Assembly: GCF_006716355.1 (NCBI RefSeq)
Contig: NZ_VFOW01000001.1
Location: forward strand, 4,216,001 to 4,280,000
Reading direction: 5' to 3'
From: Stackebrandtia endophytica
GTDB lineage: Bacteria > Actinomycetota > Actinomycetes > Mycobacteriales > Micromonosporaceae
Length of the DNA: 64,000 nucleotides
The position numbers and the translations under genes are program-made. The notes beneath the pieces are model-generated. The model saw only the letters and a program-made list of their open reading frames with translations. It had not been told where the DNA came from and ran no database searches. Positions 1 to 7,697 of this stretch are shown here, one piece after another; the stretch's first letter is position 1, and the number at the start of each line of letters is the position of its first letter.

Positions 1-2031
1 GGGAGAGAGTTCGTCGGCGCGTCGCAGGTCGGCCAGCGCGTATTCACCCCGGCCCAGGTCGATCGCGACGATCGCGCGGTTGAACCGGATCTCGGCGTTG
101 TCGGGGTCGAGGAGCACCGCGGTGTTGAGGTCGGCGAAGGCACTGAGCAGATCAGACTGTTCGTAGTGGAGTGTCGCCCGTGCCGAGAGCGCGCCGATGA
201 GGTCGGGTTGCCGTCGCAGCGCGGTGTCGTAGGAGGCCATGGCGTCGTCGGTTCGGCCGTCGGCTTGGGCGAGGTTGCCGGCCAGTACGTGCAGTTCGGC
301 GCGGTCGCCGTCCTGGTCGAGTCCGGCGGCGATGTCGGCGCCGGCGGCGATGTCGTCTCCCAACTCCAGCAGCAGTTCCGCCCGGTTCACGTAGGCATCC
401 ACATTGGTCGGGTCGAGGGCGATGGCCTCGGTGAGGTCGGCCAGCGCCCCGGCACTGTCGCCGATGCCGGCCTTGGTGACCGCCCGGTTGAAGTACGCCT
501 CCGGGAACGGCGGGGACAGTCGGATGGCCTCGTCGTAGTCGCGTAGCGCGGCCCGGTCCTCGCCGAGTCGACGCAGCAGTGCGGCCCGATCGAAGTGGTA
601 CTCCGGATAGTTGGGGTCGAGTTCGATGACCGTGTTGTAGTCCTCCAACGCCTCCTCGACGCGTTTGAGACCCGCCAACACCTGCGCCCGGTTGTATCGC
701 AGCACCGAGCGGTGCAGTCGGTGCTGGTCGGCGTCCAACGCGCTGTCGAGGCGGCTGAGACCGTCCTCGACCAGTTCCAGGGCCCGCTTCGGGTCGCCCA
801 GGTGCAGTTCGATCAGGGCGAGACCGTTGCGGTAGAACGCCGAGTGGAACGCCCGCGAGGCCTCGTTCGGGTCGAGTGAGGCGATCGCGATGGCCTGGTT
901 GATCCAGGCTTTGGCGACCCGGTGGTTGCGGGAGTCCTCCTCGTGATGCCGGGTGTACAGCATCGCGGTGGCGTAGGCAGCCTGCTGATGGACGGCGGGG
1001 GAGATGCTGGTGGCGCGGGCTTCGTTGTAGAGCTCTTCGGATTCGTCGGCGCGTGCCAGTGCCGCCAGCGAGGTGGTCATCTTGGTCGTGAACGCCCACC
1101 ACTGTTCGGGGTTGTCGGTGGCGGTGACGAACCGTCGGCCGCGTTTCCCCAGATCGACGGTGGCGTCGTAGAACCCGGCGTCGATGCAGTGGTCCAGTGC
1201 GGTGCGCAACGCGGTCACGCCGGCCCCTTCGGGGTCGCTGCCGTGTTCACGATGGAACGGGATGGCGCCCAATCGGTGGTTGATGTCCGCGTCGGTCAGT
1301 TCGTCGGCGCGTTCGTCGTGCCAGCGACGCCGGGTCGCCTCGTCGGTGGCCTGGTATGCCTCGACCAGGCCGGGGGTGTCGGCGATGCCGTCGGACCACA
1401 CCCAGTCGCGGGCGTCGGGGGTGGGCGCGGTGGCGGTGTCCTCGTCGATGTCGATGCGGTGGGCGTGCCGGAACAGTGCGGCGGGCAGGGTTTCGGGCAT
1501 CGGGGTGACCGGTTCGGTCAGTTCGTCGTATCCGGTGCACACCACCAGTCGGATCCGGGCCGGGTCGAGGCGACGCAGCAGTACCGCGATGAGTTCGGCG
1601 TCGCAGGCGTCGGCGTGGTGGGCGTCGCGGATGATCAGGCTGGCCGGGGCCGACTGTGACCGTTGAGTCAGGAACGCGGTCATGCCGTGCGCCAGGCGCA
1701 GTGTCCGCAGCCGCGAGTAGAAGCGGGTGCGTTCGGTGGGGACGGCCAGCGACGTCAGGGTCTCCTTGGTGGCCTCGATGTGGCGGCGCAGGCTCGGAGC
1801 CATCGTCAGCAGGGTCACCTCGTGTAGGCGCACCACCTCCGCGTCGGTGTCCATCGTGTCCGGTACGAGGCGGCGGGCGAGTTCACCGCCGAAGGTGTAG
1901 GGGCCGCGCAGGCGCCGGTGGGCGCTGATGGGTTCGGCGGTCATGGTCTCGGGCAGGTGGCGTCCGATCAGCGCGGCGGCTAGCTGCTCACGGTGGTGCA
2001 ACCGGAACCAGAGGTGTGATGGAGCGGTCAT
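1..2031 (-). CDS. TPR protein with AAA-like N-terminal part (partial)
   Basis: The reading frame stays open from an ATG at 2031 to the left edge, giving about 677 visible residues with no stop. From roughly residue 340 onward it contains at least five tetratricopeptide units, recognisable by repeated A-x-x-D-x-x-x-A-I-x-L-x-P patterns ending in phrases such as AIRLSPPFPEAYFNRA and AIALDPTNVDAYVNRA. The N-terminal third has a Walker B-like strand (SLIIRDAHHAD) similar to STAND/LuxR-type ATPases, but I see no P-loop in the visible part, so it may be a degenerate nucleotide-binding domain. The start lies 13 bases after the stop of the M50 protease gene, so the two are probably co-transcribed with the small-peptide cassette. 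A scaffold or peptide-recognition role is inference. The C-terminus is outside the window. Confidence 0.8.
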   Translation of the reverse strand, partial: MTAPSHLWFRLHHREQLAAALIGRHLPETMTAEPISAHRRLRGPYTFGGELARRLVPDTMDTDAEVVRLHEVTLLTMAPSLRRHIEATKETLTSLAVPTERTRFYSRLRTLRLAHGMTAFLTQRSQSAPASLIIRDAHHADACDAELIAVLLRRLDPARIRLVVCTGYDELTEPVTPMPETLPAALFRHAHRIDIDEDTATAPTPDARDWVWSDGIADTPGLVEAYQATDEATRRRWHDERADELTDADINHRLGAIPFHREHGSDPEGAGVTALRTALDHCIDAGFYDATVDLGKRGRRFVTATDNPEQWWAFTTKMTTSLAALARADESEELYNEARATSISPAVHQQAAYATAMLYTRHHEEDSRNHRVAKAWINQAIAIASLDPNEASRAFHSAFYRNGLALIELHLGDPKRALELVEDGLSRLDSALDADQHRLHRSVLRYNRAQVLAGLKRVEEALEDYNTVIELDPNYPEYHFDRAALLRRLGEDRAALRDYDEAIRLSPPFPEAYFNRAVTKAGIGDSAGALADLTEAIALDPTNVDAYVNRAELLLELGDDIAAGADIAAGLDQDGDRAELHVLAGNLAQADGRTDDAMASYDTALRRQPDLIGALSARATLHYEQSDLLSAFADLNTAVLLDPDNAEIRFNRAIVAIDLGRGEYALADLRRADELSP

Positions 2032-2044
2032 CGGGTACCTGCTT

Positions 2045-3217
2045 TCAGTTGGGGGAACGGTTGAGGCGGCGTTCACGGATGCCGAGCAGACCGGCGACGA
2101 CGAACTGCCCGATGACGAGGACCGCGACGACGAGGCTGTCGATCACCATGGGCACGGGGGCGCTCTGGCTGATGCGGGTGACGACTTCGACGGTCACGAA
2201 CACCAGGCTGGGAACCACGACGTAGCCGACGCTGAAGATCATGGCCGCGTATCCCAGCAGCAGCAGCCACGAGTACCACCGGGCCGCTTTGCGGTCGACC
2301 TCGGCGGCGGGAAGGGGTTCGGGCACGGTGCGGCCGAACAGTCGACGGATTCGGCGTTGCAGCAGGTCTCGTGAGGTGGCGTGCAGGTTCTTGCATCCCA
2401 GGACGGTCACCACGAGGTAGTACAGGTCGGTGCGCAGGAAGAAGTAGCACTGCCACAGCATCCGCATGACCGTTCCCAGTGCCAGGGCCATCGCGACGCC
2501 GGCGACGAGGCCACCGGCCCAGGCGGCCAGGCATATCAGGACGGCGGTGGCCAGCAGGTCGGACATCATTCCGGCCAGGATCGGTAGGTAGCGTTTCGTG
2601 CGGGGAACGCTGACCAGTCCATCCATTGAGGTCTCGAAGACGATGAAGTAGAAGCGGCGACTGACTCGTAGCCGCGACTTCAGGCCCAGGCGGCGGCCGG
2701 CCAGTGCGTGGGCGAACTCGTGCAGGAACAGGAACGGGAACTGGCCGAGGAACAGGGTCAGCATCACCACGATCAGTGACGGCGTGTAGAACGCGTGTGA
2801 GTAGTGGGGGATCAGGTCGGGTCGTTGAGTGAGGATCACGATCATCGCGACCACGGCGACGGTGAACGGAATCAGCGACCAGCGGGAGAAGACGGCCGCC
2901 CCGAGTCGTTGCCAGCGCACCGTCGGTGCGGCCACCACCTCGGCGGGGTCGTCGGCGATGAAGCCGAGTTCGTTGAGGGTGTCCAGGAAGTCCGTCATGT
3001 CGACGGTCTCGCCGTAGGTGGAGTGGTACCACCGGGCGGCCTGGTCCGGGGTGTCGCCGTCGACGAGTCGACGCAGCAGGGCCGCGCCGTCGCTGGGCAG
3101 GTGCACGTAGTCGTCGATGTCCGGTCGCCCGACGGTGACCTCGTCGCCCTCATCCAGAAAGGTCAGATGGTGGAACACGACCGGCTGGGCCGTCACGGTC
3201 GAATCTGTTGTGGACAT
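2045..3217 (-). CDS. M50-family membrane metalloprotease with PqqD-like domain
   Basis: A 390-residue protein. Residues about 14-90 resemble PqqD/RRE peptide-binding domains (pattern L-P-S-D-G-A-A-L-L-R-R-L-x-D-G, then helices ending in LNELGFI). From about residue 112 come at least six hydrophobic segments. The zinc site is HEFAH at 166-170, and D264 in the segment LRTDLYY is a likely third ligand, as in site-2-type M50 enzymes. ATG 3217 is preferred over an upstream in-frame start at 3280 because GGGAG lies 8 bases before it and the PqqD-like part follows at once. Fusion of a leader-binding domain to a membrane protease, directly downstream of eight tandem small-peptide genes, points to leader recognition and cleavage of those peptides. 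That substrate assignment is inferred; the protease family is clear from the motifs. Confidence 0.88.
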   Translation of the reverse strand: MSTTDSTVTAQPVVFHHLTFLDEGDEVTVGRPDIDDYVHLPSDGAALLRRLVDGDTPDQAARWYHSTYGETVDMTDFLDTLNELGFIADDPAEVVAAPTVRWQRLGAAVFSRWSLIPFTVAVVAMIVILTQRPDLIPHYSHAFYTPSLIVVMLTLFLGQFPFLFLHEFAHALAGRRLGLKSRLRVSRRFYFIVFETSMDGLVSVPRTKRYLPILAGMMSDLLATAVLICLAAWAGGLVAGVAMALALGTVMRMLWQCYFFLRTDLYYLVVTVLGCKNLHATSRDLLQRRIRRLFGRTVPEPLPAAEVDRKAARWYSWLLLLGYAAMIFSVGYVVVPSLVFVTVEVVTRISQSAPVPMVIDSLVVAVLVIGQFVVAGLLGIRERRLNRSPN

Positions 3218-3435: not shown

Positions 3436-3543
3436 CTAGCGGGCCATGATCGGGGCGGTACCGCCGCAGTCGCCGCCGTACAGCGGCTGCGCGGCGCTGG
3501 TGAGACGCACGGTCTCGGTCTTGCGAATCGCGATCTTCTTCAC
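3436..3543 (-). CDS. small peptide precursor 8 of the tandem cassette
   Basis: A 35-residue peptide from a GTG start with AGGAG 10 bases upstream. It begins with the cassette-wide segment KKIAIRKTETVRLTSAAQ, then PLYGGDC, with tail GGTAPIMAR. It is the only canonical copy with glycine at position 23. It is last in transcription order and is followed by three hairpins before the M50 protease gene. Function is unknown; a RiPP-like precursor is the best guess. Confidence 0.8.
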   Translation of the reverse strand: MKKIAIRKTETVRLTSAAQPLYGGDCGGTAPIMAR

Positions 3544-3575
3544 GAGAAGGCTCCTATGCGAGATGTCGGGTTGGA

Positions 3576-3695
3576 TTAGGCGAGGACGAGCTCGGCGCCG
3601 CCACCGCCACCGCCGCCGCAGTCGCCGGCGTACAGCGGCTGGGCGGCGCTGGTGAGGCGGACGGTCTCGGTCTTGCGGATCTGGATCTTCTTCAT
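3576..3695 (-). CDS. small peptide precursor 7 of the tandem cassette
   Basis: A 39-residue peptide, the longest in the set, with ATG start and AGGAG upstream. The conserved N-terminal half ends in PLYAGDC. The tail is seven glycines followed by AELVLA. Position 5 is Q. The ending resembles that of the divergent copy at 3878-3979 (GGELALA), so tails appear to be exchanged between copies. Confidence 0.82.
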   Translation of the reverse strand: MKKIQIRKTETVRLTSAAQPLYAGDCGGGGGGGAELVLA

Positions 3696-3728
3696 GATGT
3701 GACTCCTGTATGGAATATCGGGTGGAAA

Positions 3729-3836
3729 CTAGGCGGGGCGGATGACCACGCCACCGCCGCAGTCGCCGGCGTACAGCGGCTGGGCGGCGCTGGTGAGACG
3801 CACGGTCTCGGTCTTGCGAATCGCGATCTTCTTCAT
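3729..3836 (-). CDS. small peptide precursor 6 of the tandem cassette
   Basis: A 35-residue peptide with ATG start and GGAG upstream. It has the conserved KKIAIRKTETVRLTSAAQ half, PLYAGDC, and tail GGGVVIRPA. The frame is open further upstream, but the shared start position and ribosome-binding site across all copies fix the start here. Confidence 0.82.
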   Translation of the reverse strand: MKKIAIRKTETVRLTSAAQPLYAGDCGGGVVIRPA

Positions 3837-3877
3837 GAGCGACTCCAATATGGAATTGACATGGACGGGAAGGGGCG

Positions 3878-3979
3878 TTACGCGAGGGCGAGCTCGCCGC
3901 CGCAGTCCCCGGCGTACAGCGGTCGGACGGTGCCGGTGAGGTTCCACGTTCCGCCGCCTCCTTCGTCCATGACGTCCAT
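3878..3979 (-). CDS. divergent small peptide precursor 5 of the tandem cassette
   Basis: A 33-residue peptide from ATG 3979. Its first 18 residues differ from all neighbours and include GGGG and a tryptophan. Counted from this start, T11, L14, T15, P20, L21, Y22, G24 and C26 match the canonical copies exactly, followed by a GGELALA tail. That register supports the start despite a weak ribosome-binding site; a second in-frame ATG lies at 3970. It is preceded by the hairpin at 3990-4016. It may be a second precursor class or a decaying copy; retention of the shared residues favours the former. Confidence 0.65.
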   Translation of the reverse strand: MDVMDEGGGGTWNLTGTVRPLYAGDCGGELALA

Positions 3980-3989
3980 GTGGTGAGAC

Positions 3990-4016
3990 GAACCCCGCCG
4001 TGGTGAAGCGGGGTTC
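3990..4016 (-). promoter_or_regulatory. hairpin between precursors 4 and 5
   Basis: A perfect 9-bp stem (3990-3998 with 4008-4016) with a 9-base loop lies immediately after the stop codon of precursor 4. No T-run follows on the minus strand. It separates the first four precursors from the divergent fifth and may act as an RNA processing or attenuation point. Confidence 0.5.
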
Positions 4017-4020
4017 GGTG

Positions 4021-4134
4021 CTACAGCGCCATTCCCGGCAGGCTGGGGCTGGAGTCGCAGCCGCCGGCGTACAGCGGTTGGGCGGCGCTGGTCAGGCGGA
4101 CGGTCTCGGTCTTACGGACCTGGATCTTCTTCAT
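4021..4134 (-). CDS. small peptide precursor 4 of the tandem cassette
   Basis: A 37-residue peptide with ATG start and AGGAG upstream. The N-terminal half KKIQVRKTETVRLTSAAQ is followed by PLYAGGC and the tail DSSPSLPGMAL. Aspartate at position 25 of most copies is glycine here, and the aspartate appears after the cysteine instead. Confidence 0.82.
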   Translation of the reverse strand: MKKIQVRKTETVRLTSAAQPLYAGGCDSSPSLPGMAL

Positions 4135-4168
4135 GATCAACTCCTATGTGTCGTGACTTGCGGGGGCG

Positions 4169-4273
4169 TTAGGCGGGCAGGACCGGCGAGGAGCCGCAGT
4201 CACCCACATACAGCGGCTGGGCGGCGCTGGTGAGGCGGACGGTCTCGGTCTTGCGAATCGCGATCTTCTTCAC
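4169..4273 (-). CDS. small peptide precursor 3 of the tandem cassette
   Basis: A 34-residue peptide from a GTG start. It has the strongest ribosome-binding site of the set (AGGAGGTGACC). The conserved half KKIAIRKTETVRLTSAAQ is followed by PLYVGDC and tail GSSPVLPA. Confidence 0.82.
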   Translation of the reverse strand: MKKIAIRKTETVRLTSAAQPLYVGDCGSSPVLPA

Positions 4274-4316
4274 GGATGGTCACCTCCTCTCGGGAGTGCG
4301 AATCGGCGGTGGTCGA

Positions 4317-4418
4317 TCAGGCGAGTTCGATCGGCGCGTCGCAGCCGCCGGCGTACAGCGGTTGGGCGGCGCTGGTGAGACGGACGGTCTCGGTTTTGCG
4401 AACCTGGATCTTCTTCAC
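4317..4418 (-). CDS. small peptide precursor 2 of the tandem cassette
   Basis: A 33-residue peptide from a GTG start with AAGGGA upstream. The conserved half KKIQVRKTETVRLTSAAQ is followed by PLYAGGC and tail DAPIELA. Confidence 0.8.
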   Translation of the reverse strand: MKKIQVRKTETVRLTSAAQPLYAGGCDAPIELA

Positions 4419-4452
4419 GGCAATGTCCCTTACTGAGGTGATTGACGGCGTT

Positions 4453-4542
4453 CTACATCTCGGAGCAGGTCCCGACGTACAGCGGTTGGGCGGCGCTGGT
4501 GAGACGGACGGTCTCGGTCTTACGAACCTGGATCTTCTTCAT
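4453..4542 (-). CDS. small peptide precursor 1 of the tandem cassette
   Basis: A 29-residue peptide, the shortest and first in transcription order, with ATG start and AAGGGAAG upstream. The conserved half is followed by PLYVGTC and only SEM. The very short tail shows that anything made from this copy must be small or must include part of the conserved half. Confidence 0.8.
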   Translation of the reverse strand: MKKIQVRKTETVRLTSAAQPLYVGTCSEM

Positions 4543-4826: not shown

Positions 4827-7697
4827 ATGGACTTTCATGTGCTTGGCAATGTGGAGGTTTGGAACAACGGTCCGGTCGCCTTGCCCGGGAGGCGAGTTCG
4901 CGCCCTGCTCGCCCTATTACTGCTCAACCACGGTCGAACGGTCTCGGTGAACCGCATTTGCGAGTCACTGTGGACCGATCCGCCGCCGACAGCGGTTCGC
5001 CAGGTGCAGCACTGTGTGTCGTTGCTGCGCAAGGCGTTGGCGGACTCGGCGTCGCGTCTGATCACGGGTGCCTCCGGGTACCAGCTGGACCTGGCACCCA
5101 GCGACTCAGCCGATGTCGTCGAGTTCGAGAACCTGGTCTCGCAGGCTCGCGCGTCGGCAGACACCGACCCCGCCACCGCGGTCTCCCATTGGCGAGCGGC
5201 ATTGGCCCTGTGGCGTGGAAACGCCCTCGCCGACGTCTGCCACGCCGAGTTGACCACCCGTGCCGCCTATTTGGATGAACAACGCGTGGTGGCCACCGAG
5301 GAGTGTCTCGCCACTCGGCTGGAGCTGGGCCACTACCGCGAGGCCATCGCTGAACTGGTGTCGTTGACCAGGCAGTTTCCGTTGCGTGAACGACCCGCCG
5401 AGTTGTTGATGCAGGCGCTTCGTTCCTGCGGTCGCCGGATCGAGGCGATCGACCACTATCAACTGTTCCGAACCCGGTTGCGTGAGGAACTGGGACTGGA
5501 CCCCGGCGAGCGTCTCAACCGGTTGCATCGAGAACTGTTGCGGGGCGAGGATTCGCCGCGTCCGGTGCCGGCGGTGACGGGCCTCCCGGCCGGTCCGGTG
5601 CCGGCGGAGCTGCCCGCCGATCTGGTCAGTTTCACCGGGCGCAGCGACGTGTTGGACGCCTTGATCGAGCACATCGACGGCGGTGAGGGCCGCGTCGTGG
5701 TCGTACACGGCATCGCCGGGTGCGGGAAGACCTCCCTGGTGGTACGGCTGGCGCATTCGCTGGCGGCCCGCTTCGACGACGGCATGCTGTACGTCAACCT
5801 GCGAGCTCACGCGCCGGGCCGGGAACTGAGCCCGCATGCGGCGCTGTCCCAGTTGATGCGCAGCATCGGGGTGCATCCGGGATCGTTGCCTGGCCACACC
5901 GACGAGTTGGCCGGCCGGTTCCGCAGCACCGTCGCCGGTCGTCGACTGTTGATCGTCCTCGATGACGCCTACAGCGCCGAACAGATCCTGCCGCTGTTGC
6001 CGGGTACAGCCGAGTGCCTGGTGTTGATCACGGCTCGCAGTGAACTCCCCGGTCTCTTGAGCCGAACCGATGCACTGTCGCTTCCGTTGGGGCCGTTCGG
6101 TCCGCACGACTCGGTGCGGTTGTTGCGGTCGGTGATCGGTGACGCCACCTGTACCGCCGACGAGGATCTGTCCGCGTTGGCCCGGTTGTGTTCGGGGTTG
6201 CCCGTGGCGCTTCGGGTCGTGGGCGAAAGGTTGCGGCGGGATCGGCGGTTGACCGTGACCGACCTGGTCGCCGAGCTGTCCGGGCCCCGCAGGCTGGACC
6301 AGCTGCGGTTGCCCGGCGATGCGGGAGTGCGTGCGGCGTTCGACTCCTCCTACCGGGCGCTGCCCGATCGTCTGCAACGGTTGTGGCGACTGTTGGCGTA
6401 CGCGCCGGTCGACTCGGTGTCCGTCCACAGTGCGGCGAGTCTGACGTCGTGGCCGGAGTCGCAGGCCGACGCCGCCCTGGAGCAGTTGTCGACCGCGCAC
6501 CTGTTGGACGTGACCGAAACCGGCGGCTACCGCTTCCACGACCTGTTGCGCATGTACGCCACCGAACGCGCCACGGTCGAGGACACCCTCGCCGAACGCC
6601 GCGAAGCCGTGGCGCGGTTGCTGGACTGGTACGCCTCCCGCGCCGACGCGGCCTACCAGACGTTGAGCCCGGAGTTCCCGCCCATTCGGCGTCCGGTCGA
6701 ACGGTCGCGGCTGTTCGCGACGAAGGCGGCGGCGATGTCGTGGCTGCACGACGAGTCCACCAACCTGGTGATGTGCGGTCGCTACGCCGCGCGCCACTCA
6801 CTGCCGCACTGTTGGCAGTTGACGACCGGCATGACCAACTGGTGGGTCAACCGCGGCAACCGATCCGACTGGGTGGAGAACCTGTCGGCGGCGTTGTCCG
6901 CCGCGCAGTCGATCGGGGACCGCGAGGGGCAGTGGCGCATCAACCACGGCCTCGGGCTGGCGCACTACCTGTCGGCCAACTTCGCCGCGTCGCGCACGCA
7001 CTTCCGCAAGGCGATCTCGTTGACCCACCTGTTGGGGCGTCCCCGTGACGGATTGTGGAGCCATTCGATCCTGGCCGAACTGGAGCTCGACCACGGTCGA
7101 TACGCCGATGCCGCCCACACTCTGCGGCAGGCCATCGAGTTGTTGCCCTCCAACCGGAGGACACCTCGGCTGGAGGCCACCCTGTACCGGAACCTGGGCT
7201 ATCTCCACCTGAAGACGGATCGACCCACCGAGGCGATGGAACCGTTGCGTAAGGCCAACGTGCTGCTGTCGGGCATCAGCGCCGACGTCTGTCGATCCTA
7301 TGTGGAAATAGCGCTGGGGCAGGCGAACCAGGCGTTGCGGCGGCCCGTTCTCGCCGGCCGTCACCTGCGACAGGCGGTGCGACTGCTGGAGAACCACCAC
7401 GACCGCAAACTGCGCGGCAACGCGCACCTGAGGCTGGGGGCGTTCCTCGCCGAGTACGGTGATCCGGCCGAAGCCCGCGCGCACCTGGGGATCCTGCTGG
7501 AGCAACCCGAGACCCAGAACGCCGACCACGTCGCCGAGGCCCGGAAGATCCTGGCGTGGCTGGACCTCGACGACGCGTTAATGGTTCCCCTGAAACCACG
7601 ACCCGGTCACGGCGGTGCCGCACACCGCCGTGACCGCGCGTCGGGCGGCCGGAGGTTGTCACAGGTCTGCTGCACAATGGCGGCGACCACGGTGTGA
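4827..7697 (+). CDS. AfsR/SARP-family transcriptional regulator with NB-ARC and TPR domains
   Basis: A 956-residue protein. Residues about 1-95 are an OmpR-type winged helix as in SARPs, and about 100-245 form the bacterial transcriptional activator domain. A STAND/NB-ARC ATPase follows, with P-loop GIAGCGKT at 295-302 and a Walker B strand LLIVLDDAY. The last third is TPR-like helices. AfsR-type proteins activate secondary-metabolite genes, with the ATPase and TPR part sensing signals. Divergent placement next to the peptide cassette suggests it controls that locus and that its TPRs could sense a product; both points are inference. It contains two TTA codons (residue 31 and near the end), which in Streptomyces would place it under bldA control. 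The ATG start directly precedes the DNA-binding domain. Confidence 0.9.
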   Translation: MDFHVLGNVEVWNNGPVALPGRRVRALLALLLLNHGRTVSVNRICESLWTDPPPTAVRQVQHCVSLLRKALADSASRLITGASGYQLDLAPSDSADVVEFENLVSQARASADTDPATAVSHWRAALALWRGNALADVCHAELTTRAAYLDEQRVVATEECLATRLELGHYREAIAELVSLTRQFPLRERPAELLMQALRSCGRRIEAIDHYQLFRTRLREELGLDPGERLNRLHRELLRGEDSPRPVPAVTGLPAGPVPAELPADLVSFTGRSDVLDALIEHIDGGEGRVVVVHGIAGCGKTSLVVRLAHSLAARFDDGMLYVNLRAHAPGRELSPHAALSQLMRSIGVHPGSLPGHTDELAGRFRSTVAGRRLLIVLDDAYSAEQILPLLPGTAECLVLITARSELPGLLSRTDALSLPLGPFGPHDSVRLLRSVIGDATCTADEDLSALARLCSGLPVALRVVGERLRRDRRLTVTDLVAELSGPRRLDQLRLPGDAGVRAAFDSSYRALPDRLQRLWRLLAYAPVDSVSVHSAASLTSWPESQADAALEQLSTAHLLDVTETGGYRFHDLLRMYATERATVEDTLAERREAVARLLDWYASRADAAYQTLSPEFPPIRRPVERSRLFATKAAAMSWLHDESTNLVMCGRYAARHSLPHCWQLTTGMTNWWVNRGNRSDWVENLSAALSAAQSIGDREGQWRINHGLGLAHYLSANFAASRTHFRKAISLTHLLGRPRDGLWSHSILAELELDHGRYADAAHTLRQAIELLPSNRRTPRLEATLYRNLGYLHLKTDRPTEAMEPLRKANVLLSGISADVCRSYVEIALGQANQALRRPVLAGRHLRQAVRLLENHHDRKLRGNAHLRLGAFLAEYGDPAEARAHLGILLEQPETQNADHVAEARKILAWLDLDDALMVPLKPRPGHGGAAHRRDRASGGRRLSQVCCTMAATTV

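Follow-up and report, generated by a model that had tools for sequence, protein, structure and literature searches.

Eight minus-strand open reading frames of 29-39 codons lie head to tail at positions 3436-4542 of the window, the 64,000-nucleotide stretch of Stackebrandtia endophytica DNA analysed here. They are followed on the same strand by the genes of an M50 protease with an N-terminal RRE and of a TPR protein, and a flavin reductase gene (Pfam Flavin_Reduct, E = 1.2e-43) stands just beyond the window edge, downstream of the TPR gene and on its strand. Coordinates are collected in Table 1.

Table 1. Features of the array locus, in window coordinates, and, in the last two rows, precursor-like frames at loci L162 and L163 in the coordinates of those loci.
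Feature	Position	Strand	Basis
TPR-superhelix protein, about 700 aa, extending past the window edge to G000:C1:4215932; precursor partner	1..2031	-	profile and model
RRE-M50 intramembrane metalloprotease of 390 aa, predicted to bind the leader and to remove it	2045..3217	-	profile, alignment, model
D264, probably the third zinc ligand	2426-2428	-	invariant in 61 homologues
HEFAH zinc motif (H166, E167, H170)	2708..2722	-	invariant in 61 homologues
N-terminal RRE domain with three strands and three helices (about residues 13-90)	2948..3181	-	AF2 model, Foldseek, weak profile matches
Precursor gene 8, closest to the M50 gene, GTG start, 35 aa: MKKIAIRKTETVRLTSAAQPLYGGDCGGTAPIMAR	3436..3543	-	ORF and homologue matches
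Precursor gene 7, ATG start, 39 aa: MKKIQIRKTETVRLTSAAQPLYAGDCGGGGGGGAELVLA	3576..3695	-	ORF and homologue matches
Precursor gene 6, ATG start (internal to a longer mechanical ORF), 35 aa: MKKIAIRKTETVRLTSAAQPLYAGDCGGGVVIRPA	3729..3836	-	ORF and homologue matches
Diverged copy without leader motif, ATG start, 33 aa: MDVMDEGGGGTWNLTGTVRPLYAGDCGGELALA	3878..3979	-	ORF; weak homologue match
Precursor gene 4, ATG start, 37 aa: MKKIQVRKTETVRLTSAAQPLYAGGCDSSPSLPGMAL	4021..4134	-	ORF and homologue matches
Precursor gene 3, GTG start, 34 aa: MKKIAIRKTETVRLTSAAQPLYVGDCGSSPVLPA	4169..4273	-	ORF and homologue matches
Precursor gene 2, GTG start, 33 aa: MKKIQVRKTETVRLTSAAQPLYAGGCDAPIELA	4317..4418	-	ORF and homologue matches
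Precursor gene 1, ATG start, 29 aa: MKKIQVRKTETVRLTSAAQPLYVGTCSEM	4453..4542	-	ORF and homologue matches
SARP-type protein (BTAD, NB-ARC, TPR), divergent from the array; probable regulator	4827..7697	+	domain profiles
Precursor-like ORF beside the TPR gene, L162 (G082)	about 5950-6030	minus	no M50 within the fetched 12 kb
Precursor-like ORF beside the TPR gene, L163 (G343)	about 5755-5810	minus	no M50 within the fetched 12 kb

The positions and lengths of the eight frames are those given in a preliminary description of the sequence, and the start-to-start distances that we measured (152, 141, 143, 155, 139, 145 and 124 bases) span the 124-155 bases it reported. Its account of the reading frames held as well: seven copies share RKTETVRLTSAAQPLY at residues 7-22 and a cysteine at position 26, three of these seven full copies start with GTG, and a Shine-Dalgarno-like stretch precedes nearly all the frames. 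The front of the seven peptides reads MKKI[AQ][IV]RKTETVRLTSAAQPLY. The tails are variable as described, but they do not differ completely: several are Gly-rich and 5 of the 8 end in Ala.

In the copy at 3878-3979, the leader is gone and a Gly-rich stretch with an internal GAAGGAGG stands in its place, while L14, T15, PLY (20-22) and AGDC (23-26) are still in register (LT....PLYAGDC). Since the core register is kept without the leader, this copy is a diverged or decaying member of the array, probably a decaying one, which suggests ongoing birth and death inside the array. The array of a congener (L023, 8395-9416) consists of near-identical copies spaced by 148-153 bases, a sign that tandem duplication or gene conversion acted there very recently.

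Among the seven window copies, the leader codons gave a pN/pS of 0.20, and between five array-bearing genomes the shared part gave values of 0.17-0.56. An array peptide matched homologous genes of other genomes with a best E-value of 1e-12, far beyond chance. From these matches and the pN/pS values we concluded that the shared segment codes for protein and is maintained by purifying selection. Scanning against Rfam returned a single sub-threshold miRNA match, located outside the array. The peptides had been said to belong to no recognisable family, and this was borne out: against Pfam and NCBIfam, those of the window had no match even at E = 10, and those of their relatives none at E = 1.

The M50 protein was modelled by AlphaFold2 with a pLDDT of 92.5, and three strands and three helices account for its initial ~90 residues. 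When the model was compared to the PDB with Foldseek, the top matches were RREs complexed with leaders, TbiB1 (probability 1.00) and TfuB1 (0.98), followed by PqqD (0.66) and RRE domains of RiPP enzymes, including SkfB. The E-values of these structural matches are weak, as is to be expected when the RRE accounts for 80 of the 390 residues in the query, but TbiB1 and TfuB1 were also the two top, if weak, PDB profile matches. On the strength of the model, the N-terminal domain has a leader-binding type of RRE fold, and the whole protein is predicted to be a leader-removing protease. A scan of viral contigs with the M50 protein gave no match.

The TPR protein was modelled with a pLDDT of 96.1, as an N-terminal domain followed by a long TPR superhelix. 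The N-terminal domain has a faint match to AAA_16, and no Walker A motif was apparent in its alignment. The PDB neighbours found by profile and by model were TPR scaffolds only (the TPRs of O-GlcNAc transferase and designed TPRs), and the modelled superhelix suggests binding of a peptide or protein; these matches pointed to no catalytic function. No HTH or other DNA-binding domain was found in it, and a PADLOC scan returned only a spurious TPR match.

We then asked how far these genes occur together. The preliminary description had proposed that the motif always sits next to a PqqD-M50 gene, and an unbiased comparison of precursor and M50 was made over 399 genomes of the order. Judged by the M50 profile, the proteases fell into a close tier (27 loci in 26 genomes, at E < 1e-120) and a distant one. 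With a threshold of E < 1e-8, the 26-column precursor profile picked out exactly the 26 genomes with a close M50, and the two genes were adjacent at 27 of the 27 loci, in agreement with the proposal; the cassette is thus present in about 6.5% of the sampled genomes of the order (about one in fifteen). The TPR profile retrieved the same 26 genomes plus G082 and G343; in G404 it matched weakly and in part. G082 and G343 are exceptions to the proposal: the M50 is absent, and a weakly matching precursor-like ORF lies directly upstream of the TPR gene. Peptide and TPR protein may be a self-contained unit there, or else remnants. Starting from the peptide gave the same picture: a 28-residue query against the window's 60 nearest genomes found matches in 11 others, down to E = 0.6, and the same M50 and TPR genes adjoined the precursor at 12 of 12 loci, the weakest match included, with M50 proteins 40-78% identical to that of the window.

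A wider set of 80 named loci was drawn from GTDB representatives and ascertained through the M50 profile. In this set a precursor was found upstream of the M50 gene in all 80 cases (73 by regular expression, 7 by eye), always on the same strand and with a median distance to the M50 homology of about 120 bp, and the TPR gene was present in 80/80. The order of the cassette is precursor(s), M50 with N-terminal RRE and ~700-aa TPR protein, and genes for a flavin reductase and for a SARP regulator often accompany it. The named loci span Streptomyces, Kitasatospora, Lentzea, Actinokineospora, Amycolatopsis, Nocardia, Micromonospora, Streptosporangium and others. Most have a single precursor gene, and outside the array clade the number is one to three. 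Arrays were found only in the window's clade, i. e. in the window genome, Candidatus Stackebrandtia excrementipullorum, one further congener, Actinorhabdospora and Phytomonospora.

A flavin reductase was present in the fetched region of 33 of the 80 named loci, an Old-Yellow-type enzyme came immediately after the TPR gene in 7, and about half of the loci had no flavin enzyme. A SARP-like gene flanked 38. Cores with Cys before Tyr were found at 31 of 40 loci with a flavin enzyme and at 9 of 40 without (Fisher p = 1.5e-6). We rejected this association as independent evidence, because it is mainly carried by one clade; it was non-significant after phylogenetic pairing.

The named loci yielded 87 distinct precursors. 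Beyond the array clade the leader consensus is MKKIxVRKxGxVRLT, and an invariant Thr closes the leader in all 87 peptides. The core that follows, 10-25 residues long, contains at least one Cys and at least one Tyr in 87 of 87 cases, and no leader contains a Cys. The order of the two residues varies, with Cys first (AAACSQYNVKPV) or Tyr first (SAAQPLYAGDC...). Plasmid searches returned mostly distant RRE-M50 loci and one close cassette, on a Streptomyces plasmid, whose peptide has neither Cys nor Tyr and which is surrounded by transposases; it is possibly degenerate. A distant version of the cassette was reached solely via its M50 on contig 296 of G589 (4.2 kb, low GC, in a genome bin of the same phylum), where MKKFAIRDVETVKTTAAALYIPFFCGGGGWPF, preceded by a ribosome-binding site, lies upstream of the M50 and TPR genes. 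This contig may have entered the bin as contamination from another phylum, and if so the range of the cassette family would be wider.

In the distant tier of RRE-M50 proteins, six loci (L148, L149, L155, L156, L157 and L158) have related tiny Cys peptides directly upstream and no TPR gene. Their leader is of a second type, MKKLVVRKLEPVKTS...C, as in MKKLVVRKLEPIKTSAAADCVPSAA, and one of them, L148, lies in the window's own genome (G000:C1:881000-900000; peptide MTTVMTLTVRKLEPVHTSTSAVCSAA). These loci resemble the array cassette in their related leader, conserved Cys and directly downstream RRE-M50 gene, but have luciferase-type monooxygenase, HMG-CoA-synthase-like or NRPS-like neighbours instead of the TPR protein. 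They probably represent a second undescribed peptide class. At L161 (plasmid of Streptomyces sp. NBC_01650) and L150, a ThiF-type adenylyltransferase stands beside a distant RRE-M50 protein and the gene of a SARP-type regulator, which is another recurring architecture for this type of protease.

The daptides are among the closest known systems. Their leader removal has been assigned to an RRE-fused site-2 protease, MpaP (PMC10036551), and they share with the array cassette an N-terminal RRE on an intramembrane M50 protein beside multi-copy short precursors that are conserved in front and variable in the core. However, the ELExMEAP leader and C-terminal Thr of daptides (PMC10036551) are both absent from the present precursors, and no daptide-type aminotransferase, alcohol dehydrogenase/oxidoreductase, methyltransferase or ABC transporter was found among the recurring flank groups of the 80 loci; the array cassette has a TPR partner instead. 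The NCBIfam daptide protease model NF041824 did not match the window M50 at E <= 10, and faintly matched a distant-tier relative. The cassette thus works like a daptide-type RRE-protease cassette, yet it is not a daptide. In epipeptides, the M50 protease EpeP is thought to cleave and export the core (PMC10885120). An M50 protease would likewise act on the core here, and the lack of a conserved transporter would fit an exporting protease comparable to EpeP; unlike in epipeptides, the M50 of the array cassette carries an RRE, and no radical SAM epimerase was found beside the cassette. The B1/E RREs of lasso peptides (TbiB1, TfuB1) and PqqD have the same N-terminal fold, which is here fused to an M50, and neither a lasso cyclase nor a B2 peptidase family recurs in the flanks of the 80 loci. 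Lan synthetases, YcaO proteins and radical SAM enzymes, as expected for lanthipeptides, LAP/thiopeptides and sactipeptides, were not apparent among the recurring flank groups. The FxSxx-COOH/HaaA-type systems (NF040586, NF041717) are similar in having actinobacterial short peptides beside NB-ARC/TPR proteins, and the SARP regulator of the window weakly resembles their TPR proteins, but neither model is matched by the TPR protein of the cassette itself, and the peptides have no FxSxx ending. A search of the open-access literature, subscription papers and recent preprints being outside its scope, found no paper on the leader motifs, and for the architecture nothing beyond work on daptides, RREs, leader proteases and unrelated classes. 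With a conserved leader, a variable core and, from the model, an adjacent RRE fold, as in RiPPs in general, we regard the family as of the RiPP kind and as a member of no named class.

We conclude that, with a probability of about 0.72, the eight ORFs encode precursors of an undescribed RiPP-type family whose leader is bound and cut by the RRE-M50 protease. The preliminary description had read the array as a cassette of RiPP precursors or of peptide signals, and the confinement of strong precursor matches and close M50 genes to the same 26 of 399 genomes supports such a reading. We infer leader binding, the cleavage site, the TPR role, the redox step and export as follows. The precursor would consist of a 15-residue N-terminal recognition segment, MKKIxVRKxxxVRLT, ending with Thr15, and of a short variable core. 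The cytosolic RRE of the adjacent membrane M50 protease would bind this segment, and recognition between leader and protease is supported by the fact that the leader type tracks the protease clade. The M50 active site (HExxH and Asp) would then cut near the small-residue stretch past Thr15 and free the core, possibly releasing it across the membrane, as the cassette has no conserved transporter. The TPR superhelix protein may present the peptide, chaperone it or help to modify it, and the flavin reductase or Old-Yellow-type enzyme, where present, may add a redox step; the invariance of Cys and Tyr and the frequent flavin enzyme are what point to a modified core. In the window's clade, a single ancestral gene would have been amplified to an array, whose tails then diversified.

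The small natural product made by the cassette is probably of a new kind. None of the known RiPP-modifying enzymes is a conserved part of the cassette, flavin reductases or Old-Yellow-type enzymes being the only candidates, at about half of the 80 loci. A bolder proposal is that precursor, RRE-guided protease and TPR protein define a categorically new peptide class, in which the TPR protein, with its as yet unassigned N-terminal domain, or the protease matures the Cys/Tyr core in an unprecedented role and flavin enzymes are optional tailoring. We put this forward tentatively, as a possibility clearly less likely than not.

The main rival, which we consider unlikely, is a signalling cassette, where the M50 protease frees an essentially unmodified peptide and the cytosolic TPR superhelix acts as its receptor, feeding the SARP regulator. 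Eep-type M50 proteases release pheromones in a comparable way, and the RRNPP proteins are TPR receptors of exported pro-peptides, with an HTH or regulator-binding output. Protease, TPR protein and peptide are the only universal parts of the cassette, no modifying enzyme being conserved in it; the modelled TPR protein is a long superhelix of the peptide-binding type, and a SARP-like gene is found in the flanks of nearly half of the named loci. Against it, the precursors have no apparent signal peptide or hydrophobic stretch, and no DNA-binding domain was found in the TPR protein. The protease bears a genuine RRE, which is typical of RiPPs, at least seven different tails per operon fit poorly with a single receptor, and the invariant Cys and Tyr hint at chemistry.

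We give little credit to the view that the peptide is a scaffold, on whose Cys/Tyr a small molecule or redox cofactor comparable to PQQ, mycofactocin or the pearlins is built before the M50 protease cuts. The PqqD-like RRE in the protease, the flavin reductase or Old-Yellow-type enzyme occupying the same slot and the invariant Cys and Tyr of the cores are all compatible with this view, and the product of some pearlins is released by M50 proteases (PMC10885120), a precedent for the last step. However, the cores differ greatly in how many Cys and Tyr they have and in the order, spacing and surroundings of these residues, several different tails occur in one genome, neither a radical SAM nor a PEARL enzyme is conserved nearby, and the flavin enzymes are often missing. 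Last, a non-coding structural repeat, named beforehand as the explanation that would undo the peptide reading, or a decaying repeat devoid of peptide function, is hardly credible: the frames are short and one copy in eight has lost its leader, but pN/pS is about 0.2, Rfam holds no credible match, and the segment is conserved across many actinobacterial families at a fixed position relative to the M50 gene.

The carriers of the RiPP-type cassette include many drug-producing genera (Streptomyces, Kitasatospora, Lentzea, Actinokineospora, Micromonospora, Nocardia and numerous others). Its size of three genes makes heterologous tests easy, and the natural arrays are ready libraries of core variants on a single leader. 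As the cassette is organised like those of RiPPs but has no known modifying enzyme, it leads directly to new chemistry or new signalling by peptides.
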